Source: Rhodospirillales bacterium BBD 1991-14
Lineage (GTDB): Bacteria; Pseudomonadota; Alphaproteobacteria; Kiloniellales; Kiloniellaceae
Assembly: GCA_001657395.1 (NCBI GenBank)
Contig: LYSY01000002.1
Location: forward strand, 372,001-436,000
Direction of reading: 5' to 3'
Length of the DNA stretch: 64,000 bases
The position numbers were made by a program, and so were the translations under genes. Shown piece after piece: positions 9,996 through 51,123 of this stretch. The notes beneath the pieces are model-generated. The model searched no databases. It worked only from the letters and a program-made list of their open reading frames with translations, and was not told where the DNA came from. The stretch's first letter is position 1. Every line of letters starts with the position of its first letter.

Positions 9996-10754
9996 ATGAA
10001 AAAAGCTGATGTCGTCACCTTCTTCGACCGCCTTGCCACGGCCATGCCCGAGCCCAAGGGCGAGTTGGACTACGTCAATCCCTACACCCTGCTGGTGGCC
10101 GTCGCGCTCTCCGCCCAGGCCACCGACGTCAGCGTCAACAAGGCCACCGGTCCGCTGTTCAAGACGGTGACCACGCCCGAGGCCATGCTGGAACTCGGCG
10201 AAAGCCGGCTGAAGGATCACATCAAAACCATCGGCCTCTATAACTCCAAGGCCAAGAACGTGATCGCCCTTTCGCAGATCCTGATTGCCGAGCACGGCGG
10301 GGAGGTGCCGCGCGACCGCGACGCCCTGGAGAAGCTGCCGGGGGTCGGGCGCAAGACCGCCAACGTGGTTCTCAACATCGCCTTTGGCGAGCCCACCATC
10401 GCGGTCGACACCCATATCTTCCGGGTCGGCAACCGCACCGGTCTCGCCCCGGGCAAGACGCCGCTGGCGGTGGAACTGAAGCTGGAAAAGGTGGTGCCGG
10501 CGGACCGCAGGCTGCACGCCCACCACTGGCTGATCCTGCACGGACGCTATGTCTGCAAGGCGCGCAGTCCCGACTGCCCGGCCTGCGTGGTGCACGATCT
10601 TTGCGCCTTCAAGGGCAAGACCACGCTGGAAGGGCCGCCGGCCGGGAAGAAACCAGCGGCCAAGAAAACCGTGAAGAAGAAAGCGACAGCGAAGAAGAGC
10701 GCCGCCGCCGGGAAGCCTGCGGCCAGGGCGAAGACGCGGCGAAAGGCCGGTTAG
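9996..10754 (+). CDS. nth: Endonuclease III with lysine/alanine-rich C-terminal tail
   Basis: This 252-residue base-excision repair DNA glycosylase/AP lyase acts on oxidised pyrimidines. The helix-hairpin-helix LPGVGRKTANVVL carries catalytic Lys120 and the following VDTHIFRV carries Asp138, the same numbering as the E. coli enzyme when the ATG at 9996 is used. The [4Fe-4S] cluster loop CKARSPDCPACVVHDLC has the required Cx6Cx2Cx5C spacing. About 45 residues then follow the normal end (E. coli Nth is 211 aa): a basic, histone-H1-like tail of KKPAAKK, KKKATAKK and KAKTRRKAG type. The tail may add non-specific DNA binding (inference). An alternative upstream ATG at 9954 overlaps the preceding gene. 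Confidence 0.95.
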   Translation: MKKADVVTFFDRLATAMPEPKGELDYVNPYTLLVAVALSAQATDVSVNKATGPLFKTVTTPEAMLELGESRLKDHIKTIGLYNSKAKNVIALSQILIAEHGGEVPRDRDALEKLPGVGRKTANVVLNIAFGEPTIAVDTHIFRVGNRTGLAPGKTPLAVELKLEKVVPADRRLHAHHWLILHGRYVCKARSPDCPACVVHDLCAFKGKTTLEGPPAGKKPAAKKTVKKKATAKKSAAAGKPAARAKTRRKAG

Positions 10755-10873
10755 CGCGTTGTCGACGTGCGTCGAGGCGGTTCCAGCCCGCTCCCCCTCC
10801 CGGCCACCCATAGGATACTGGTGCTGGGTGGCCGGGAGGGGGAGCGGGCCGGTGCCGGAAAACCCAAAGAAGC
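10755..10873. repeat. Palindromic intergenic element, copy 1
   Basis: This fills the whole gap between the convergent stops of nth and the lipoprotein gene. A perfect 25-bp inverted repeat (10786-10810 with 10825-10849) encloses a 14-base loop containing TAGGATACTGG. An imperfect extension (CGGttCCa against tGCCGgtG-type pairing) lengthens the stem. A small hairpin TCGACG-tg-CGTCGA lies at 10762-10775. A second copy in the opposite orientation is at 35344-35477 and shares the stem, loop motif, side hairpin and flanks (GGTTCCAGCC and GCCGGTGCCG). It may work as a bidirectional terminator, but no T-run directly follows the stem. Confidence 0.9.
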
Positions 10874-11392
10874 CTAGCTGACCGGCACCGTCTGGCGCTC
10901 GCGCAGCAGGCGGTTGAGGCAGGGCCGGGGGGCCAGGCGGTCGGCGGCATCGTCGCGCGCTTCCAGATAGGTCACGCGATAGCGGCTGCCGCTGTCGTAG
11001 AGCACCACATCGAAGACGCAGCCAGCGGTCACATACTGCCAGATTTCCGCCGGATTTTCGCGGCGCACCAGATCGGGCTCGCCGAGCAGCGCGGAGACGC
11101 CGCCCCGGTCGAGGCCCATCAGTTGGTTCGGGTCGTCGTTGATCGGCGGCGGGGCGGGCGGCCGTGCGGTGATCTGCGGCACCGGTTGTGGCGCGGGCGC
11201 TGCCCCGGCCGGTGCGACGCCCGGTGCCCCGCCCTCGGCGTTCTGCACCGCGGGTTCGGCGGCCCCGGTCTGGCCGGCGGAGGGACCGCTCTGGGATGTG
11301 GTGCCGGTGGTCTGGCAGGCGGCCAGCGCGAGCCCGCCCAACAGCAGGGCCAACGTAGTCCGGAACTGACGGCGCATCCTGCGGAAGACCAT
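10874..11392 (-). CDS. Putative outer-membrane/periplasmic lipoprotein
   Basis: A 172-residue protein beginning MVFRRMRRQF, then a hydrophobic stretch and the lipobox LALAAC with the lipidated Cys at 26. Residues about 30-85 are a low-complexity Ala/Pro/Gln/Gly linker. The C-terminal half is a small folded domain: NQLMGLDRGGVSALLGEPDLVRRE, AEIWQYVTAGCVFDVVLYD and CLNRLLRER. It resembles a conserved alphaproteobacterial lipoprotein whose small domain is loosely like the SmpA/BamE arrangement (LLGEPDxxRxE...WxY), but I would not assign BamE. The frame continues upstream into bactofilin. The ATG at 11392, 5 bp after the bactofilin stop, is the sensible start and implies an operon. Confidence 0.7.
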   Translation of the reverse strand: MVFRRMRRQFRTTLALLLGGLALAACQTTGTTSQSGPSAGQTGAAEPAVQNAEGGAPGVAPAGAAPAPQPVPQITARPPAPPPINDDPNQLMGLDRGGVSALLGEPDLVRRENPAEIWQYVTAGCVFDVVLYDSGSRYRVTYLEARDDAADRLAPRPCLNRLLRERQTVPVS

Positions 11393-11397
11393 GGCGG

Positions 11398-12057
11398 TCA
11401 GCCGGCCTGGGACTGCGAGGTATGCCCGCCCGGGGCGGCATCGCTGCTGTGGGCCAGCTTTGGCCCCTCGCCCTGCAGGCGGCTGCGGAAAGACGCTTCC
11501 AGAACGTCGACATCGCCGCTCAGGCGGCCGCCTTTCAGGATTTCGATGTCGGCGTAGCGGATCTTGCCGATGACCCGGCCGCCGGGGTGGATCACCAGGC
11601 GGCCGGTGACGGTGAGATCGCCCTCGAAGGTGCCGTGCACGATGCACTCTTCCACGATGGCCTGGCCTTTGAACAGGCCGGGCTCGCTGATTTCCAGGCT
11701 CTGGCTGTCGTTGAGATCGGCCTCGACCCGGCCCTCGACCACCAGGGTCTCGCAGGTCTTGATCTCGCCGGACAGGCAGATTTCCCGCCCGACCACCAGC
11801 TTGCGGCCTTCGACGGCGCTGGGGGCCGCGGGAACGCGCGGCTCGGGGCGCCGCGGTGCCGCCTTGAGACCGGAAGGGCTGTTCGTCTGGGCTGCGCTTT
11901 CTGCCCCCAGCGCCCCGGGATCCCCGATGCCGGGCTGCCCTTCTCCGGCCGCGCCGGGCGCTTCGGGGTGGGCGTTCAGGGGCAGCGGGGCGGTGGGGGC
12001 GGGACTGGAGCCGTGGTTGGAGGAAGCCGTCGAGGGGGTCTTGCGCTTACCAAACAT
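11398..12057 (-). CDS. Bactofilin family cytoskeletal protein
   Basis: This is a 219-residue protein. The first ~95 residues are a low-complexity Pro/Ala/Ser region. A compact bactofilin (DUF583) beta-helix follows from about 98 to 195, with characteristic repeated short strands: LVVGREICLSGEIKTCETLVVEG, LFKGQAIVEECIVHGTFEGDLTVTG, LVIHPGGRVIGKIRYADIEI and GGRLSGDVDVL. Bactofilins polymerise without nucleotide and act as membrane-associated scaffolds for cell-wall enzymes, stalks or polar proteins. The gene is followed directly by the lipoprotein gene and preceded by the EI24-like gene on the same strand, a plausible envelope operon. The N-terminal extension is longer than in BacA/BacB. Confidence 0.88.
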   Translation of the reverse strand: MFGKRKTPSTASSNHGSSPAPTAPLPLNAHPEAPGAAGEGQPGIGDPGALGAESAAQTNSPSGLKAAPRRPEPRVPAAPSAVEGRKLVVGREICLSGEIKTCETLVVEGRVEADLNDSQSLEISEPGLFKGQAIVEECIVHGTFEGDLTVTGRLVIHPGGRVIGKIRYADIEILKGGRLSGDVDVLEASFRSRLQGEGPKLAHSSDAAPGGHTSQSQAG

Positions 12058-18090: not shown

Positions 18091-18358
18091 TCCTGCAAGG
18101 TTGATGGCGCTCTCTGCCCGCCGTCATCGCGGGCGGAAGCACCTGTTGCGCCGATGAAAACCGGCCGGCGGCTGCTTACATGGTTGCTTGAACGGTTCCA
18201 CTGGAAAGCCTGAAGGCGCCGGGATCATCAGCGCAGCCGCGCGGCCGCTTCCCAGACGTTTTGGCTGATCCAGATCATCGTTCCGTCATCTGGGCATGCT
18301 AGTCTGAGGGTTGACGGAAAGCTTTGTTTTCAAACAAAAAAAGACAGGTTGACGCGAC
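18091..18358. other. Non-coding gap with an AT-rich dyad
   Basis: This 268 bp stretch between the macro-domain and Pat-like genes has no plausible gene. Near its end TTTGTTT (18323-18329), TC, AAACAAA (18332-18338) form a perfect 7-bp inverted repeat in a locally AT-rich patch 20 bp before the downstream GTG start. It could be an operator or leader hairpin; a TTGACG lies at 18311-18316 but without a matching -10 element. Confidence 0.5.
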
Positions 18359-21094
18359 GTGACCATTCGCAATCTGGATGCGCTTTTCGAACCCAAGTCG
18401 GTCGCCGTGGTGGGGGCCAGCCGGCGTCCGGGCTCCCTGGGTTCGGTGCTTGCCCGCAACCTCTTCAACGGGGGGTTCCAGGGCCCCATCATGCCGGTGC
18501 ATCCGCGGCACGAGGCGATCGAAGGCGTGCTTGCCTATCCCTCCGTGGAGGCGCTGCCGCAGACCCCGGACCTGGCTGTGATCGCCACGCCGCCGGACAG
18601 CGTGGCGGAGCTTGTTGCGGCCTTCGGCAAGCGCGGCACCCGCGCGGCCGTCGTCATCACCGCCGGCTTCGGCGAGGGCGGGGACGGGCAGGGCGCCGGG
18701 CGGCGCCAGGCCATCCTCGATGCCGCCAAGCCGAACCTGCTGCGGGTTGTCGGGCCCAACTGCCTGGGAATGATGGTCCCGGGCATCGGCCTCGATGCCA
18801 GTTTTTCCCATGTCGCGCCGCTGCCCGGAAACCTCGCCTTCGTCACCCAGTCCGGCGCCATGGTGACGGCAATGCTCGACTGGGCGACGCCGCGCGGCAT
18901 CGGCTTTTCGAAGGTGGTGTCGCTGGGCGACAAGGCTGACGTCGACTTCGGCGACCTGCTGGACTACCTGGCCATGGATGTGCAGACCCGGGCCATCCTG
19001 CTGTACATCGAGTCCGTCGCCCATGCGCGCAAGTTTCTCTCGGCCGCGCGCATCGCCGCCCGCAACAAGCCGGTGATCGTCGTCAAGGGCGGCCGCCATG
19101 CCGAGGGGGCAAAGGCCGTAGCGTCTCATACCGGTGCGCTGGCCGGGGCCGATGCGGTCTACAACGCCGTCTTCTCACGGGCCGGCATGCTGCGGGTCTA
19201 CAGTCTGGAGGAACTCTTCGATGCGGCGGAGACGCTGTCCCGCCTCTCGGTCGCACGGCGCCACCCGGACGGCCGTGCCCGCCTGGCGATCCTCACCAAC
19301 GGCGGCGGCCTCGGCATTCTGGCGACCGATGCGCTGATCGACCACGGCGGAAAGCTGGCGGAGCTCTCCGCCTCGACCAAGGCGGCGCTGGACGCCTGCC
19401 TGCCGGTGACCTGGAGCGGCGGCAACCCGGTCGACATCATCGGCGACGCGCCGGGCGTACGCTATCGGGCCGCGCTGGAGGTGCTGCTGCAGGAACGGGA
19501 GGCCGACGCCACCCTGGTGATGCACTGCCCCACCGCCGTCGCCTCCGCCACCGAGGCCGCCAAGGCGGTGGTGGAGGCCCTGGGGGCCACGCCCGCCAAG
19601 GACCGACCCGTTCTTGCCGCCTGGGTCGGCGACCAGGCCGTTGAGGACGCCCGGCGGCTTTTTGCCCGCCACGGCATCGCCAGCTACGAGACGCCGGAGC
19701 AGGCGGTGCAGGGCTTCATGCATCTTGAGAACTATCGCCGCAACCAGGCGCTGCTGATGCGCGTTCCCCATCCCGAGCGCGACGTGGTGGAGCCGGACCG
19801 CGCCGCGGCCCGGGCGGTTCTGGAACCGGCGCTGGCGGACGGCCGCGAGTGGTTGAGCGAGGCCGAGGCCAAGACCCTGATGCAGGCCTACGGTATTCCT
19901 GTGGTGGCGACCCAGGTGGTGGCCAGCCCCGCTGAAGCCGGAGCGGCGGCGGCGGCGCTCGGCGGACCGGTGGCGCTGAAGATTCTCTCGCGGGATCTGA
20001 CTCACAAAAGCGATCTGGGCGGTGTCGCCCTGGACCTGGAGGGCAAAGCGGCGGTGACAGCCGCCGCCGAGGCGATGCTTCAGCGCATTGCCGCCGCGGC
20101 GCCCCATGCGAAGCTGGAGGGCTTCACCGTTCAGGCCATGTGCCGGCGCCCGCGGGCCGAGGAGCTGATCCTGGGCGTGGTCGACGATCCGCAGTTCGGC
20201 CCGGTGATGCTGTTCGGTCACGGCGGCACCGCCGTCGAGGTGATCGCGGACAAGGCCCTCGCCCTGCCGCCGCTCGACCCCATGCTCGCCGAGGCGATGA
20301 TGGCGGAGACCAACGTCTATCGGCTGCTGCAGGGCTACCGCGACCGCCCGCCGGCGGCGATCAAGGAGGTCGCCGACTGTCTCGTGCGCCTGTCGCAGAT
20401 CGTCAGCGACATGCCGGAGATCACCGAGGTCGACGTCAATCCCCTTCTGGCCGACGCCGAGGGCGTCATCGCGCTGGATGCCAGGGTGCGCATCGCCGCC
20501 CGCCGCGATCCCCTGGCGGCCCCGACGGCACGCCTGGCGATCCGGCCCTATCCGCGCGAACTCGAGCAGACCGTTGCGATGCCGGACGGCAGCGAGATCT
20601 TCATCAGGCCGCTGCGGCCGACCGATGCCGCCGGGCTGCGCCATGCTTTCCGCCAGTTGGATCCGGAAGACGTGCGCATGCGTTTCTTCGCCACCATCAA
20701 GGACCTCTCGGACGACATGTTGGCGCGGCTGACACAGCTCGACTACGACCGCGAGATGGCCCTGGCCGCCTTCACCTCGCAGGATTCAGGGCACCAGGGG
20801 CTGGGCGTGGTGCGCCTGGCCGCCGACCCGGATAACCGGCGCGCGGAGTTCGCGGTCCTGGTGCGCTCCGACATCAAACGCCAGGGGGTCGGCTCGATCC
20901 TGATGGAGGCCATTCTCGATTACGCCCGCGAGCGCGGGATCGGCGAGATCTGCGGCTCCGTCCTGGCTGAGAATGCCGCCATGCTGGCCCTCTGCCGCAA
21001 GCTCGGCTTTGCGGCGACGCCGGCGGGCGAGGGTACGGTGGCGGTCAGGCTGAACCTCGCCGAGCAGACGGCGGAGGGCCTGAAGACGGCCTGA
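18359..21094 (+). CDS. Pat-like fusion: NDP-forming acyl-CoA synthetase plus GNAT acetyltransferase
   Basis: This is a 911-residue protein. Order of domains: CoA-binding Rossmann domain (about 1-130; SVAVVGASRRPGS), two succinyl-CoA-synthetase-like domains (about 145-455; GNLAFVTQSGAM, ILTNGGGLGILATD), an ATP-grasp domain (about 480-700; YGIPVVATQVV, LKILSRDLTHKSDLGGV), and a C-terminal GNAT domain (about 730-895; RPLRPTDAAGLR, RQGVGSILMEAILDYARERG, NAAMLALCRKLGF). This is the architecture of protein lysine acetyltransferase Pat/YfiQ, which acetylates and inactivates AMP-forming acetyl-CoA synthetase in enteric bacteria. Start is a GTG with AGG about 10 bp before it. Whether the synthetase half is active needs testing. 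Confidence 0.88.
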   Translation: MTIRNLDALFEPKSVAVVGASRRPGSLGSVLARNLFNGGFQGPIMPVHPRHEAIEGVLAYPSVEALPQTPDLAVIATPPDSVAELVAAFGKRGTRAAVVITAGFGEGGDGQGAGRRQAILDAAKPNLLRVVGPNCLGMMVPGIGLDASFSHVAPLPGNLAFVTQSGAMVTAMLDWATPRGIGFSKVVSLGDKADVDFGDLLDYLAMDVQTRAILLYIESVAHARKFLSAARIAARNKPVIVVKGGRHAEGAKAVASHTGALAGADAVYNAVFSRAGMLRVYSLEELFDAAETLSRLSVARRHPDGRARLAILTNGGGLGILATDALIDHGGKLAELSASTKAALDACLPVTWSGGNPVDIIGDAPGVRYRAALEVLLQEREADATLVMHCPTAVASATEAAKAVVEALGATPAKDRPVLAAWVGDQAVEDARRLFARHGIASYETPEQAVQGFMHLENYRRNQALLMRVPHPERDVVEPDRAAARAVLEPALADGREWLSEAEAKTLMQAYGIPVVATQVVASPAEAGAAAAALGGPVALKILSRDLTHKSDLGGVALDLEGKAAVTAAAEAMLQRIAAAAPHAKLEGFTVQAMCRRPRAEELILGVVDDPQFGPVMLFGHGGTAVEVIADKALALPPLDPMLAEAMMAETNVYRLLQGYRDRPPAAIKEVADCLVRLSQIVSDMPEITEVDVNPLLADAEGVIALDARVRIAARRDPLAAPTARLAIRPYPRELEQTVAMPDGSEIFIRPLRPTDAAGLRHAFRQLDPEDVRMRFFATIKDLSDDMLARLTQLDYDREMALAAFTSQDSGHQGLGVVRLAADPDNRRAEFAVLVRSDIKRQGVGSILMEAILDYARERGIGEICGSVLAENAAMLALCRKLGFAATPAGEGTVAVRLNLAEQTAEGLKTA

Positions 21095-21143
21095 GGGAAG
21101 ATGCCGCTGTCGCGGAGGACCGCAGCACGGCTCAATCAAGACT

Positions 21144-21211
21144 GGGGGCAGTCAGGACTTGGGGGCAGTCAGGACTTGGGGGCAGTCAGGACTTGGGGGC
21201 AGTCAGGACTG
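21144..21211 (+). repeat. Four tandem copies of a 17-bp unit
   Basis: GGGGGCAGTCAGGACTT repeats exactly at 21144-21160, 21161-21177 and 21178-21194. A fourth copy at 21195-21211 differs only in its last base. Each unit contains the small dyad AGTC-AG-GACT. The block sits in the 124 bp convergent gap between the Pat-like gene and phoB. Confidence 0.92.
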
Positions 21212-21218
21212 GAGGCCT

Positions 21219-21911
21219 TTAGGGGCCGGGCCGGTCCAACGAGTAACCGGCGGAACGCACGGTGCGGATCAGGTCTTCGCTGCCGTTCTGGTTCAGGGCC
21301 TTGCGCAGCCGGCGGATATGCACGTCGACCGTGCGCGGCTCCACATAGACATCGCGCCCCCAGACCGAATCGAGAAGCTGCTCGCGGGTGAACACCCGGC
21401 CCGGGTTCTGCATCAGGTGGCGCAGCAGGCGGAACTCGGTGGGCCCGAGGTGGACGTCGTGGCCGTTGCGGCGGACTCGGTGGGCCGCCAGATCCATGGC
21501 CAGATCCTCGAAGGCCAGCATTTCGCTGCTGAGTTCCGGCTTGCTGCGGCGCAGGACCGCATTGATGCGCGCGATCAGCTCAGCCGGCGAGAAAGGCTTG
21601 GTCATGTAATCGTCGCAACCGCTGTCGAGGCCGCGCAGCTTGTCGCTCTCTTCCCCGCGCGCCGTCAGCATGATGATCGGCACACGCTTGGTGTCCGGCT
21701 TGCTGCGCAGTTGGCGGCAGACTTCGATGCCGGACATCAGCGGCAGCATCCAGTCGAGCAGGATGAGGTCCGGCACTTCTTCCGCCGCGACCACAAGCGC
21801 TTCTTCGCCGTCGCTCGCGGTGTTCACCCGGAAGCCGGCGCCCTCAAGGTTGTAGCGCAGCATGGTGACCAGGGCTTCCTGGTCCTCGATAATCAGAACA
21901 AGAGGTCTCAC
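21219..21911 (-). CDS. phoB: Phosphate regulon response regulator PhoB
   Basis: This is a 230-residue OmpR-family regulator. The receiver domain (1-120) has acidic pocket Glu9/Asp10, phospho-acceptor Asp53 in LLDWMLP and Lys105 in YMTKPF. The C-terminal winged helix (about 132-228) contains LGPTEFRLLRHLMQNPGRVFTREQLLDSVWG and VDVHIRRLRKAL. Phosphorylated by PhoR, it binds Pho boxes and recruits sigma70 when phosphate is scarce. It is the last gene of the pst block; its ATG overlaps the phoU stop by 4 bp. The WGRDVYVEPRTVDVHIRRLR recognition region is typical of PhoB rather than other OmpR members. Confidence 0.96.
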   Translation of the reverse strand: MRPLVLIIEDQEALVTMLRYNLEGAGFRVNTASDGEEALVVAAEEVPDLILLDWMLPLMSGIEVCRQLRSKPDTKRVPIIMLTARGEESDKLRGLDSGCDDYMTKPFSPAELIARINAVLRRSKPELSSEMLAFEDLAMDLAAHRVRRNGHDVHLGPTEFRLLRHLMQNPGRVFTREQLLDSVWGRDVYVEPRTVDVHIRRLRKALNQNGSEDLIRTVRSAGYSLDRPGP

Positions 21912-32559: not shown

Positions 32560-35343
32560 ATGACCGCAAAGCCCGCCCCCCAGCAGGATCAGAACCAGCA
32601 GGACCAGGATCCGCAGACCGCTGCAGCGCAGCCTGCCCCGGCGGTCCAAGCGACCCGCTCGGCCCAGCCCGCCAAGGCGGCTGCCGTGACCCCGATGATG
32701 GCCCAATACCTGGAGATCAAGGCTGAGCACCCGGGCGTCCTGCTGTTCTATCGCATGGGGGACTTCTACGAACTGTTTTTCGAGGACGCGCAACAGGCTT
32801 CCGCCGCCCTGGACATCGCGCTGACCAAGCGCGGCCAGCACCAGGGCGCGGACATCCCCATGTGCGGCGTGCCGGTCCATTCCGCGGACGGCTATCTTGC
32901 GCGCCTGATCCGCAAGGGCTTCAAGGTCGCGGTCTGCGAACAGACCGAGGACCCGGCGGAGGCCAAGAAGCGCGGCAGCAAGTCGGTGGTGCGCCGGGCG
33001 GTGGTGCGCATCGTCACGCCCGGCACCCTGACCGAAGATGCGTTGCTGGACGCACGGGCCCACAACTACCTGGCCGCGCTGGCGAGCGCCGGCGGCGGAC
33101 TGGCGCTGGCCTGGGTCGACATCTCGACCGGCGATTTCCAGACCCAGGCGCTCGGCGCCGGAGATCTGGCCGCGGCCCTGGCGCGCCTCGATCCCGGCGA
33201 GATCATTCTGCCGGAAAGCCTGCTGGCCCAGCCTGTCCTCGCGGAGGCCCTGGCCGACCTGCGGGAGCGGCTGAGCCCGCTGCCGGCGCCACGCTTCGAC
33301 AGCGGCAACGCCCGCCGCCGACTGGAGGAGGTGTTTCAGGTCAGGGCGCTGGAGGCCTTCGGCGCCTTCGGCCGCGCCGAACTGGCCGCCGCGGGCGCGC
33401 TGATCGATTACCTGGCGCTCACCCAGAAGGGGAAGATGCCCCGCCTGCAGCCACCGCGGCATCTGGCCGGCGGTGCGGTGATGGAGATCGATGCCGCCAC
33501 GCGGCGCAACCTGGAACTGACCGAGTCCCTCTCCGGCGGGCGCGACGGCACCCTGCTCGCCACCATCGACCGCAGCGTTACCGGCGCCGGTGCCCGGCTG
33601 CTGGCGACCCGCCTCGCCGCGCCGCTCACCGACCCCGGGGTCATCGCGGCGCGCCACGACCAGCTCGCCTGGCTTATCGAGGACGGCGGACTGCGGGCCG
33701 ACCTGCGTACAGCGCTGCGGCGCTGTCCGGACATCGAACGGGCCCTGTCCCGCCTCAGTCTCGGCCGCGGCGGGCCGCGCGACCTCGCTGCCGTCCGCGG
33801 CGCGCTTGCGGTGGCCGGGGATCTGGCGCGGCTCGTCGTCGCCCGCGCCGGCCTTGCGCCGCCGAGCCTGGAGGCCGGCGATCTGGAAAGTCTCGGCGGC
33901 CACGCAGACCTCGTTGCGATTCTGGATGCGGCCCTGGCGGCGGAACCGCCGTTTCAGGCCCGCGACGGCGGCTGCATCGCCGCCGGTTACGACACGGCCC
34001 TCGACGAGCTGCGCAGCCTGCGCGACGACAGCCGCAAGCTGATGGCCGGGCTGCAGAGCCGCTATGCCGAAGAGGCCGGCGTGCCCAGCCTCAAGGTCAA
34101 GCACAACAACGTGCTCGGCTATTTCATCGAGGTGACGCCGACCCACGCCGGCAAGATCAAGACCGGCGCCGAGGGCCCCTTCATCCATCGCCAGACCCTG
34201 GCCTCGGCCATGCGCTTCACCACGGTGGAACTGTCCGAGCTGGAGCAGAAGATCGCCTCGGCGGCGGAGCGCGCCCTGGCGCTGGAACTGGAGATCTTTC
34301 AGCGCCTGGTGGCCGAGGTTCTGGGTCAGGCCGAAGCCATCGCGCACAGCGCACGGGTGCTGGCGGCGCTGGATGTCGCCGCCGGCCTCGCCGAGCTGGC
34401 GGTGGAACAGCGCTGGTGCCGCCCGCGCATCGACGACAGCACAGCCTTCGACATCCGCGGGGGGCGCCACCCGGTGGTGGAGGCCGCGCTTGCCCAGGCG
34501 CAGGAAGGCGGCTTCGTCGCCAACGACTGCCGCCTTGAGGACGACCCCGATCCCGACTCGGGTGTCGGCCGCATCTGGCTGATCACCGGCCCCAACATGG
34601 CGGGCAAGAGCACCTTCCTGCGCCAGAACGCGCTGATCGCCGTGCTCGCCCAGATGGGCAGCTATGTGCCCGCCGCTTCCGCGCACATCGGGCTGGTCGA
34701 CCGCCTGTTCAGCCGCGTCGGTGCCGCCGACGACCTGGCGCGGGGCCGCTCGACCTTCATGGTCGAGATGGTGGAAACCGCCGCCATCCTCAATCAGGCG
34801 GGGCCGCGCGCGCTGGTGATCCTGGATGAGATCGGCCGCGGCACGGCCACTTTCGACGGGCTCTCCATCGCCTGGGCCTGCATCGAACACCTGGACCAGG
34901 TGAACCGCTGCCGCGCCCTCTTCGCCACCCACTACCACGAGCTGACCGCGCTGGCCGCCAAGCTGGACTCCCTGTCCTGCCATGCCATGCGGGTGAAGGA
35001 ATGGCAGGACGACGTGGTGTTCCTGCACGAGGTGGTGGCCGGGGCCGCCGACCGCTCCTACGGCATCCATGTCGCCAAGCTGGCCGGCCTGCCCAAGGCC
35101 GCCATCGACCGGGCCGAGGCGGTGCTGGCGACCCTGGAGCAGGGCGAACAGGCCGGTGCCCTCTCGCGCCTGGCCGACGACCTGCCGCTCTTCGCGGCCA
35201 CGCTCAGCCAGCCGACAGCCGCGCCCGAGCCCTCCCCCGTCGAGACGGCGCTTTCCGGGGTCGCGCCGGACAGCCTCAGCCCGCGCGAAGCGCTGGAGCT
35301 GATCTATCGTCTGAAAGAACTCATAGGGCCAAGTGATCGCTAG
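32560..35343 (+). CDS. mutS: DNA mismatch repair protein MutS
   Basis: This 927-residue protein recognises mismatches and recruits MutL. The mismatch-reading Phe and Glu are in [14 protein letters not shown] near residue 68, and [21 protein letters not shown] follows. The ATPase has Walker [10 protein letters not shown] near 680, Walker B-like [17 protein letters not shown] and a FATHYHEL segment. About 45 Gln/Pro/Ala-rich residues precede the conserved start, making it longer than E. coli MutS (853 aa). The C-terminal linker is Pro/Ala-rich and ends in a short helical segment [16 protein letters not shown] that could be the tetramerisation region. The gene is followed immediately by palindromic element copy 2. 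Confidence 0.97.
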
Positions 35344-35477
35344 ACGTTTTCTTGGTTTGACGGCACCGGCCTGCTCCCCCTCCCGGCCACCCCCCAAGTT
35401 GCTCCAGGGGCCAGTATCCTATGGGTGGCCGGGAGGGGGAGCAGGCTGGAACCGATTCGACGTCAGTCGAAAACGTT
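35344..35477. repeat. Palindromic intergenic element, copy 2
   Basis: This fills the entire gap between the convergent stops of mutS and a lipoprotein gene. The stem is a perfect 24-bp inverted repeat (35369-35392 with 35423-35446) enclosing a 30-base loop, which on the minus strand includes the TAGGATACTGG motif of copy 1. The loop itself holds a CCCC...GGGG pairing absent from copy 1. A side hairpin TTCGAC-gtca-GTCGAA lies at 35456-35471. An outer inverted repeat ACGTTTTC/GAAAACGT (35344-35351, 35469-35476) bounds the element. Orientation is opposite to copy 1. Confidence 0.9.
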
Positions 35478-35975
35478 TTAAAGCGGCGGCGCCGCCAGGG
35501 TGAGCAGACCGTCGCGGCCTTCCGGGTCGCGGTAGCGCACCTCGATACGCCAGTCGCGGTAGCCGCTGCGGTAGCGCTGCGGCTCTTCCACGGGAATCTC
35601 GGCCGTCAGATACTGGCTGCGCCGTTCTTCGCGGCTGCCGCGGAAGAGGTAACCGAGAGAAATGTACGGCCTGATGCCGCTGGAGGAACCGCCGGTCGCG
35701 CCCACGCCGATGCCGGGGCCGGAGGCGCCGCCGCTGCCGGTCTGGCGGGTGACGACCTCGCGGTCGCGGGCCGGGGTTTCGCCGCCCTGGGGATCGACCA
35801 GCACCAGCGCCAGGATCTGGCGCCCCGGCGGAATGTCGTCGACCCGGAGCTTCAGCGTCTCGGCCTCGGCGCTCGCGCTGGCACGCATCAGCGGCGGGTC
35901 GGCCGGGCTTGCGCAGGCGCCGAGGATCGCCAGTACACAGACGGTCTTTAGGACCGTGCCAAGGATTCGTGCCAT
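35478..35975 (-). CDS. Putative lipoprotein
   Basis: This 165-residue protein starts MARILGTVLKTVC and carries the lipobox LAILGAC with lipidated Cys21. The mature part has LKLRVDDIPPGRQILALVLVDPQGG, a Gly/Ser-rich linker around 80-100, ISLGYLFRGSREERRSQYLTA, and a C-terminal YRDWRIEVRYRDPEGRDGLLTL beta-rich end. I do not recognise a named family. The frame continues far upstream antisense to glnD; that part is a GC-rich shadow, and the ATG at 35975 with a lipoprotein signal is the credible start. It is divergent from glnD and convergent with mutS. Confidence 0.65.
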   Translation of the reverse strand: MARILGTVLKTVCVLAILGACASPADPPLMRASASAEAETLKLRVDDIPPGRQILALVLVDPQGGETPARDREVVTRQTGSGGASGPGIGVGATGGSSSGIRPYISLGYLFRGSREERRSQYLTAEIPVEEPQRYRSGYRDWRIEVRYRDPEGRDGLLTLAAPPL

Positions 35976-50188: not shown

Positions 50189-51064
50189 ATGAGCCTTGCG
50201 GAATCAAAAGCCGATCGCCCGGTCGACGTCGCCGTCGGCAATCTGCGTATCCGCCTGGCGGAAGACCCTGCCGAGATCCGCGCGGCGCAGGCGTTGCGAT
50301 ACCGTATCTTCTACGAGCAGATGGCCGCCCAGCCGACGGCGGAGATGCGCGCGGCCCGGCGCGACTTCGATTCCTTCGACGACTTCTGCGATCATCTTCT
50401 GGTGTTCGACGAGGAGCGCGGCAGCGGGCCGGAGTCGGTGGTCGGGACCTACCGGGTGATGCGCCGCGAGGGTGCGGCCCGGCGCGGACAGTTCTATTCG
50501 GTCGACGAGTACGACATCGCCGCAATCGAGTCCTACCCCGGCGAGATCCTGGAACTCGGGCGGTCCTGCGTCGATCCCACCTGCCGCAGCGGTGCGGCCA
50601 TGCAACTGCTCTGGCGCGGCATTGCAGAGTATGTCTTCTACCACAACATCAGCATCATGTTCGGCTGCGCCAGCCTGCCGGGAGTCGACCCCCAGGAGCT
50701 GAAGCTGCCGCTGTCCTATCTCTACCATCACCACCTGGCGCCACCGGCGCTGCGGGCAAGGGCGGTGGACGACCGGCGGGTGGCCATGGATCTGCTGCCC
50801 ATCGAAGAGGTCCAGATTTCCGAGGCGCGGCAGGCCCTGCCGCCGCTGATCAAGGGATACCTGCGGCTCGGCGGCTTCGTCGGCGATGGCGCGGTGGTCG
50901 ACCACGACTTCGGCACCACCGATGTCTGTATCGTCGTAAAGACCGACTGGGTCACCGAAAAGTACCTGCGCCACTACAAGCGCGAGGAGCCCGCTTCCTC
51001 GGCCGGCGCCCTGGCACAGGGCGTATCCCCCGGCGCTGGGCAGGGCCCCGGAAGCGCCCGCTAG
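50189..51064 (+). CDS. olsB: GNAT acyltransferase, OlsB-like (L-ornithine N-alpha-acyltransferase)
   Basis: This 291-residue protein is related to the OlsB/hemolysin acyl-homoserine-lactone-synthase-like GNAT family. Features: IRLAEDPAEIRAAQALRYRIFYEQM, FDDFCDHLLVFDE, VVGTYRVMRREGA, ILELGRSCVDPTCRSGAAMQLLWRGIAEYVF and FGCASLPGVDP. OlsB attaches a 3-hydroxyacyl group from acyl-ACP to ornithine, the first step of ornithine lipids. Downstream is an acyltransferase that would do the second step. The upstream gap holds the perfect palindrome GCGTTAACGC (50160-50169). A TTG further upstream is a poorer start than the ATG at 50189. Confidence 0.85.
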   Translation: MSLAESKADRPVDVAVGNLRIRLAEDPAEIRAAQALRYRIFYEQMAAQPTAEMRAARRDFDSFDDFCDHLLVFDEERGSGPESVVGTYRVMRREGAARRGQFYSVDEYDIAAIESYPGEILELGRSCVDPTCRSGAAMQLLWRGIAEYVFYHNISIMFGCASLPGVDPQELKLPLSYLYHHHLAPPALRARAVDDRRVAMDLLPIEEVQISEARQALPPLIKGYLRLGGFVGDGAVVDHDFGTTDVCIVVKTDWVTEKYLRHYKREEPASSAGALAQGVSPGAGQGPGSAR

Positions 51065-51079
51065 GACCTCACTGGTTCC

Positions 51080-51123
51080 ATGACCGCCTCCTAGCCCATA
51101 CCTAGCCCATGACGGCCCCCTAG
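51080..51123 (+). other. Two mini-cistrons repeating the olsA start
   Basis: ATG ACC GCC TCC TAG (51080-51094) and ATG ACG GCC CCC TAG (51109-51123) each encode four residues (MTAS, MTAP) and stop. The real olsA start is ATG ACT GCC CCG (MTAP) at 51127. The units look like tandem duplications of the start region with intervening CCTAGCCCAT. No Shine-Dalgarno sequence precedes 51127. Confidence 0.6.

Follow-up and report, generated by a model that had tools for sequence, protein, structure and literature searches.

The two palindromic segments at positions 10755-10873 and 35344-35477 of the window, the 64,000-nucleotide stretch of DNA from Rhodospirillales bacterium BBD 1991-14 that was analysed, probably belong to a family of non-autonomous, MITE-like transposons with CTAG/YTAR as target. 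As the initial annotation had supposed, the family is dispersed, with 18 intact copies and at least four relics in the genome of this bacterium (G000). The outcome that had been named as contrary to a dispersed family, two copies only and none in relatives, is not what was found.

The window copies and their parts

The two copies stand at the annotated places and in opposite orientation, as borne out by the sequence and by a repeat finder. Each has a near-identical perfect stem of 24 bp with zero mismatches, and the other parts that had been described, the loop motif TAGGATACTGG, the side hairpin TCGAC..GTCGA and the conserved flanks GGTTCCAGCC and GCCGGTGCCG, are present at both. The loops are unequal as described, with 14 and 30 nt between the arms in the repeat finder, which aligns the copies as two inverted pairs with 89% identity over 65 bp and 87% over 46 bp. 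The four folds (two copies, two strands) gave z-scores of -8.15 to -8.58 against dinucleotide shuffles, and 0 of 200 shuffles folded equally well.

The annotated limits of both copies are exactly the gaps from stop codon to stop codon. Copy 1 is bounded on the left by the TAG of an endonuclease III-like (nth-like) gene, identified by Pfam and ending at 10754, and on the right by the CTA of a minus-strand ORF, from 10874. Copy 2 is bounded on one side by the TAG of mutS (Pfam, end 35343) and on the other by the TTA of a minus-strand ORF at 35478. No Pfam match was obtained for either minus-strand ORF. Since the ORF beside copy 2 overlaps the plus-strand glnD and has no Pfam match, the convergent gene next to this copy is only putative.

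A typical copy is about 120 bp long. Read from the GGTTCC end, it consists of a YTAR (commonly CTAG), about 23 nt with the side hairpin, the core, a tail of about 17 nt and a second YTAR/CTAG. The core is usually 80 bp, and 94 bp in window copy 2 with its long loop; its order is CGGTTCCA, a C-rich 24-nt arm, a loop of about 16 nt, a G-rich 24-nt arm and CGGTGCCG. The parts of the window copies are as follows.

10751-10754, plus strand: copy 1 left end motif TTAG (YTAR), which holds the TAG stop of the nth-like gene (sequence)
10762-10775, plus strand: copy 1 side hairpin TCGAC-GTGC-GTCGA (sequence, fold)
10778-10857, plus strand: copy 1 core, 80 bp, CGGTTCC...GGTGCCG (alignment, covariance model)
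10786-10809, plus strand: copy 1 C-rich arm, 24 nt (fold, repeat finder)
10810-10825, plus strand: copy 1 loop ATAGGATACTGGTGCT, 16 nt with 24-nt arms, first and last base able to pair (fold, repeat finder)
10826-10849, plus strand: copy 1 G-rich arm GGGTGGCCGGGAGGGGGAGCGGGC, 24 nt (fold)
10874-10877, plus strand: copy 1 right end motif CTAG, whose CTA is the stop of the minus-strand ORF 10874-11647 (sequence)
35340-35343, minus strand: copy 2 right end motif CTAG, which contains the mutS TAG stop (sequence, Pfam)
35361-35454, minus strand: copy 2 core, 94 bp, long-loop variant, GGTTCC to GGTGCC on the minus strand
35393-35422, minus strand: copy 2 loop, 30 nt (repeat finder)
35456-35471, minus strand: copy 2 side hairpin TTCGAC-TGAC-GTCGAA, as read on the minus strand (sequence, fold)
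35478-35481, minus strand: copy 2 left end motif TTAA (YTAR) (sequence)

The terminal inverted repeats are imperfect in this genus (CTAGAGCGTTTTC / CTAGACTCTTTCAC). They are perfect over 10 bp in L061 and read TTTGTCAGA/TCTGACAAA in Parasphingopyxis. Long-loop variants (L001, L002, L003, L168, L222, L223, L251-L254, L261 and L267) form a second size class, with cores of 90-94 bp and loops of about 26-30 nt that contain an extra small palindrome, e.g. CCCC..GGGG. The copies of Parasphingopyxis lamellibrachiae (L269-L287, L180-L213) are mosaics, in which swappable side-hairpin modules surround the core inside the TTTGTCAGA..TCTGACAAA ends; an extra module, GAAGATGACA..TGTCATCGGAG, occurs in four copies, and a fifth (L280) has only its start. 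Elsewhere in the window, a 17-bp unit, TGGGGGCAGTCAGGACT, is directly repeated in about four copies at 21143-21227, right after a long plus-strand gene (18353-21094, coding score).

Family size and range

The search of the genome and its relatives with a covariance model, proposed in the annotation, was performed with R1, a model of 18 element cores. It found 18 places in the 5.51-Mb genome, the same 18 that BLASTN with copy 2 recovers, and about 47 in one congener. In the own genome, 150 of 7156 first-look candidates were scored with R1. Over G000, G001, G002 and G006, the model returned 36 to 94 rows, as a rule two rows per place. Only element ends or halves are left at four other places in the own genome. 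Among members of the genus, the own genome, G001, G002, G003 and G006 are R1 positive, and G004, G005 and G007 are negative.

Over the 58 surrounding genomes, own included, 26 are R1 positive, in 14 of 27 genera; this count includes L071 and L072, which look like other hairpins. Two of the weaker positives, G027 and G037, look like other hairpins on reading. A survey of the class, in which 12 candidates were scored per genome, gave 29 positives in 385 genomes and 20 in 277 genera (E <= 1e-6). The genomes reached via named loci (42 of 80 loci taken) were positive in 6 of 42 cases, including Parasphingopyxis lamellibrachiae DSM 26725; a weak single match in Azospirillum canadense (L185) is, by appearance, a different hairpin.

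The element was also found on two plasmids, pSA1 of Novosphingobium resinovorum and pSFD01 of Sphingopyxis sp. FD7, and a plasmid of Sphingomonas sanguinis matches a Parasphingopyxis copy. The phage collection searched gave no element match. In IMG/VR, 30 stretches match an exact pattern; the 13 in which both arms match were read, and all 13 have a complete stem-loop. On one IMG/VR contig (L473 5556), which carries terminase, portal, head and tail genes, the complete stem-loop follows the major head protein gene. Contigs of about 14-15 kb are among the matches, and those of about 15 kb may be gene transfer agent clusters.

End motifs, occupied and empty sites, and probable turnover

The ends were studied in a set of 103 copies (18 of 18 from G000, 19 of 19 from G001, 41 of about 47 from G002, 23 of about 25 from G006 and 2 of about 40 from G003), of which two are without flanks. 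YTAR stands in the left end window of 58 of the remaining 101 copies, in the right of 50 and in both of 34, against averages of 1.8 (left) and 1.2 (right) of 101 for six shifted windows. CTAG itself is most frequent at -27 (22 copies) and +17 (25 copies). Gene ends were called by coding score, with annotation for one plasmid only. A left gene was called for 71 copies, and in 47 of them 20-24 nt separate its stop from the core (mode 23); on the right, a convergent gene was called for 54, and in 43 the gap between core and stop is 13-20 nt (mode 17). At these distances, the stop is TAG in 37 of 47 cases on the left and 33 of 43 on the right; for comparison, the window as a whole has 34 called genes, counting the two that adjoin the copies, and 11 of them end in TAG. 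On pSFD01, an oxidoreductase gene has its annotated stop within the element's right CTAG; the gene on the other side stops short of the left CTAG. The idea that the element always presents its GGTTCC end to the upstream gene was weakened, with 35 left-only and 18 right-only cases in the 103 copies.

CTAG is avoided in the window, with 16 observed and 63 expected from trinucleotides. Stops of the 34 called genes account for five of the 16, among them the end of copy 2. Four CTAG crowd into 63 bp at 51061-51123, in DNA otherwise poor in this motif, and three of these four lie inside a degenerate short repeat (CCTAGCCCAT / CCTAGCCTATGAC).

The close species G000 and G001 were compared site by site, with probes 82-99% alike. 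Six sites are occupied in both. For 12 of the 18 own copies, no intact G001 orthologue was found; 10 of these sites were located without one, and 2 were not located. Together with 12 of the 13 unshared G001 copies, looked up in G000, these 10 of 12 give 22 comparable sites. At five of the 22, the unoccupied genome has a clean empty site with a single YTAR, four times CTAG and once CTAA. The empty allele of L222 is a CTAG that could stop two convergent genes, and its full allele has an exact CTAG on both sides, the only clean site with two exact copies of the target. The other full alleles read CTAA/CTAG at L217, CTGG/CTAG at L008 and TTAG/CTGA at L016, each with CTAG in the empty allele, and CTAA/CTCG at L004, where the empty allele is CTAA; decay must be assumed at these four sites.

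At nine of the 22 sites, the element is absent and the junction is not clean (L160, L220, L224, L218, L006, L001, L011, L221 and L176), which could be explained by deletion or other rearrangement. Clear or probable remnants remain at five (L157, L073, L173, L223 and window copy 1), another repeat occupies two (L003 and L009), and one (L012) is of unclear class. Relics without a core recur (L411, L368, L436, L342). For window copy 1, G001 retains the right end of the element, which suggests a loss in G001, not a gain in G000, and that the copy predates the split of the two species. For window copy 2, no clean empty site was found in the G000/G001 comparison. On these alignments, the sites have the look of a mobile element that turns over, its copies decaying by deletion.

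The repeat at the sites of L003 and L009 in G001 (L357, L378), seen also at L436, is a different palindrome, CTTCGAGACG...CTCAGGGTGAGG...GCGTCTCGAAG. It fills the corresponding gaps between genes in the sister species and resembles CGTC-tagged REPs (PMC3733652).

What would such a stem do in a transcript? Whichever strand is transcribed, it would fold into a very stable hairpin some 17-23 nt past a stop codon. The intrinsic-terminator scan, which covers loops of 3-8 nt, gave no match at either window copy, and no T run follows the stem; since the U-tract is absent, this is no canonical terminator. A block of 3' exonucleases by a stem at this distance would be expected, or else the hairpin would set the mRNA 3' end without a U-tract. 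Effects on translation are less likely, because E. coli REPs reduce translation only when they lie no more than 15 nt from the stop (PMC12306157).

These properties could also be read as those of a 3'-end element useful to the host, a bidirectional terminator or mRNA stabiliser selected at convergent and tandem gene ends, whose copy number changes mainly through loss. The constant distance to the stop codon, the very stable fold, the compensated stem changes described below and the six sites at which G000 and G001 both carry a copy are consistent with it. So is a site common to G000, G001 and G002, before a reading frame that we take to be hisA. However, neither window copy has a U-tract or terminator match, 12 of 18 own copies have no intact G001 orthologue that could be found, the five single-YTAR empty sites point to gain, and compensation may also arise mechanically within a hairpin. 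Because only L222 keeps two exact target copies, we have slightly lowered our support for the transposon reading and slightly raised that for selection, which we nevertheless consider unlikely.

Stem-loop, mobiliser and related repeats

The G positions of the G-rich arm are strictly conserved. In a set of 36 copies, each from a different genome or plasmid and mostly best matches, which favours conservation, the 14 G-run positions show 0 differences from the consensus in 504, and the nine linker positions differ in 47 of 324, always at non-G bases. The stems are paired 24/24 in 32 of these 36 replicons, and all 36 arms keep a G-quadruplex motif. Clipped or poor copies (L058, L071, L072, L407 and the G064 and G065 loci) were left out of this set, as was L401, the second copy of one genome; L071 and L072, which resemble other hairpins, do differ at G positions. 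In G069, 29 of 32 compensated changes fall at the 7 non-G positions of the 24 (one of 28 copies, L285, failed the arm criterion), and in the genus, 23 of 29 are at non-G positions, among related copies that are not independent. Of the uncompensated single changes, 18 of 32 in G069 are at G positions, as are 41 of 74 across the genus. Copies mutated at G therefore exist but seldom spread.

The stem-loop inverts in place. Its loop lies one way in 60 copies and the other way in 41, with 2 unclear, and in orthologous pairs that have the same element orientation, the loop orientation differs in 4 of 14 (2 of the 103 copies in the pair and stem-change analyses have gapped arms). At the same-orientation sites shared by G000 and G001, 2 of 5 are inverted (L017/L163 and L020/L216). 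A base difference between the arms of L020/L216 has also swapped sides, so the whole stem-loop has turned and not the loop alone. At the sixth shared site, L013/L215, the whole element is reversed, side hairpin included, possibly by a second insertion. Inversions borne by palindromes are known from plastid genomes (PMC2903610).

Copies concentrate near the origin in the two genomes tested, G069 and G025. The gene hemE adjoins oriC in Sphingomonadaceae (PMC4741004), and it is assumed to mark oriC in the genomes analysed here; it lies about 38 kb before the window. With radii picked after inspection of the data and gene density uncontrolled, 18 of 28 copies in G069 are within 270 kb of hemE (5.3 expected; 0 of 200,000 random draws), and 6 of 16 in G025 are within 160 kb (1.1 expected; p = 0.0004). 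The sampled GC skew has its minimum near hemE in G069 and is uninformative in G025, for which the mean distance to hemE gives p = 0.03. The contig ends of G025 appear redundant (two pairs of equal matches), and those matches were merged.

The core might be a switch between two structures, selected for its G strand beyond pairing. Each strand would form either the 24-bp hairpin or, when the C arm is engaged elsewhere, a G-quadruplex of the 3' arm; the quadruplex form would serve replication forks or transcript ends near the origin, with the stem-loop as an invertible segment. The predicted energies are -75.7 kcal/mol for the hairpin and -9.6 for the quadruplex of the lone G arm. With so large an advantage for the hairpin, a protein that recognises the G strand is no less probable than a quadruplex, and we regard such a switch as quite improbable. 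That each locus expresses a structured regulatory RNA of one family is very improbable: a loop motif like AGGATA/TATCCT occurs in 30 of 36 replicons versus 12% of shuffled loops, but both loop orientations occur (60 to 41), the differing pairs (4/14) mean that no fixed loop strand is presented, and no Rfam match at gathering score lies within the window. A tRNA gene search found nothing.

We return to the MITE-like transposon. The initial annotation had compared the form of the element to REP/ERIC-like or MITE-like repeats, and MITE-like is the better fit: the element is short, non-coding and multicopy in G000, G001, G002 and G006, and its end motifs are duplicated at clean sites. REP-like suits it less, on account of the length, the stem and the lack of a Y1/RAYT match in most carriers. 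A 20-40 bp palindrome with an unpaired GTAG/CGTC tag was not found; CGTC is present in the element but paired, inside the side hairpin. The annotation had also suggested a linked REP-type transposase as mobiliser. The RAYT domain, Y1_Tnp, went undetected in the own genome and in 10 of the 16 further carriers. Since no match was found in 11 of 17 carriers and 6 of 9 non-carriers do have one, RAYT is unlikely to be the mobiliser. That the element is a REP moved by a RAYT (Y1) transposase is therefore barely credible: it is an intergenic palindrome with tens of copies near stop codons, and Y1_Tnp is matched in 6 of 17 carriers, but its end motifs are duplicated at clean sites and it has a 24-bp stem in about 120 bp, versus 20-40 bp for the REPs described in PMC3733652.

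Which enzyme, then, might move the element? A putative transposase acting in trans, most likely of an IS5-family kind targeting YTAR, would insert it at CTAG or a near match. IS711 belongs to the IS5 family. In Brucella, it targets YTAR with duplication of TA and also inserts into Bru-RS1 (PMC3163539). Because YTAR with TA duplication is the target of IS711, an IS5-family helper is our guess, by analogy. The duplicated target would be all four bases or the central TA, with the G and C borne by the element; the data fit both, and CTAG could thus be in part an element-borne end. Since CTAG is rare and able to be a stop on both strands, insertions would tend toward gene ends, and each neighbour would keep its stop. 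Copies decay through stem deletion, and the stem-loop can invert in place. Comparison of copies and genomes shows the family, its end motifs, the clean empty sites, the decay and the inversion; the transposase and the effect on RNA are inferred. In a search for an autonomous partner with the left-end pattern, ten loci were read: known copies (L412, L439), further copies beyond the matches listed for the congeners (L418, L441), relics without a core (L436, L422, L438), ends followed by unrelated DNA (L427, L430) and what looks like a chance match (L428).

The ends of Bru-RS and RIME may resemble CTAGAGC..GCTCTAG ends. Compared by description, the Bru-RS1/2 of Brucella and RIME of Rhizobium are likewise alphaproteobacterial palindromic intergenic repeats; Bru-RS are 103-105 bp long, and Bru-RS1 has a YTAR site used by IS711 (PMC3163539, PMC2267715, PMC2573895). 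Bacterial MITEs such as Correia/NEMIS and RUP resemble the element in being short, non-coding, multicopy, intergenic and hairpin-forming, with a duplicated target at clean sites. Unlike them (PMC2229807, PMC10969869), it has no known parental insertion sequence, its ends are tied to CTAG/YTAR stops, its stem-loop is invertible, and its internal hairpin is longer and more conserved than its ends. The GTAG/CGTC-tagged REPs are also dispersed palindromes near gene ends. CGTC REPs, typical of alphaproteobacteria and without a known transposase (PMC3733652), have 8-9 bp stems with the tag at one end, whereas the present element has a 24-bp stem and YTAR ends. Br-REP1 of Bradyrhizobium is similar in its three consecutive palindromes, which lie where the 3' UTRs of convergent genes overlap, and its central stem CCGGAATCTCGAGATTCCGG differs in sequence from the present element (PMC5082802).

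The element is of a known kind, a MITE-like palindromic repeat. Related repeats were found in the literature searched, which was covered in part, and the letter strings of the element were not found in the paper texts searched, a partial coverage that does not imply absence from print; no joint description was found in it of stop-codon CTAG as a niche, inversion in place, strict G conservation and a broad, patchy range. If the transposon reading is true, this is a short parasite in a nearly harmless niche, the rare CTAG common to two convergent TAG stops, where duplication of CTAG leaves both neighbouring genes intact. The family would then be a natural system for studying the persistence of long perfect palindromes, their flipping in place and the reasons for their gathering near the origin. 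Furthermore, a family of class-wide range could break draft assemblies and mislead searches for small RNAs and terminators in alphaproteobacteria.
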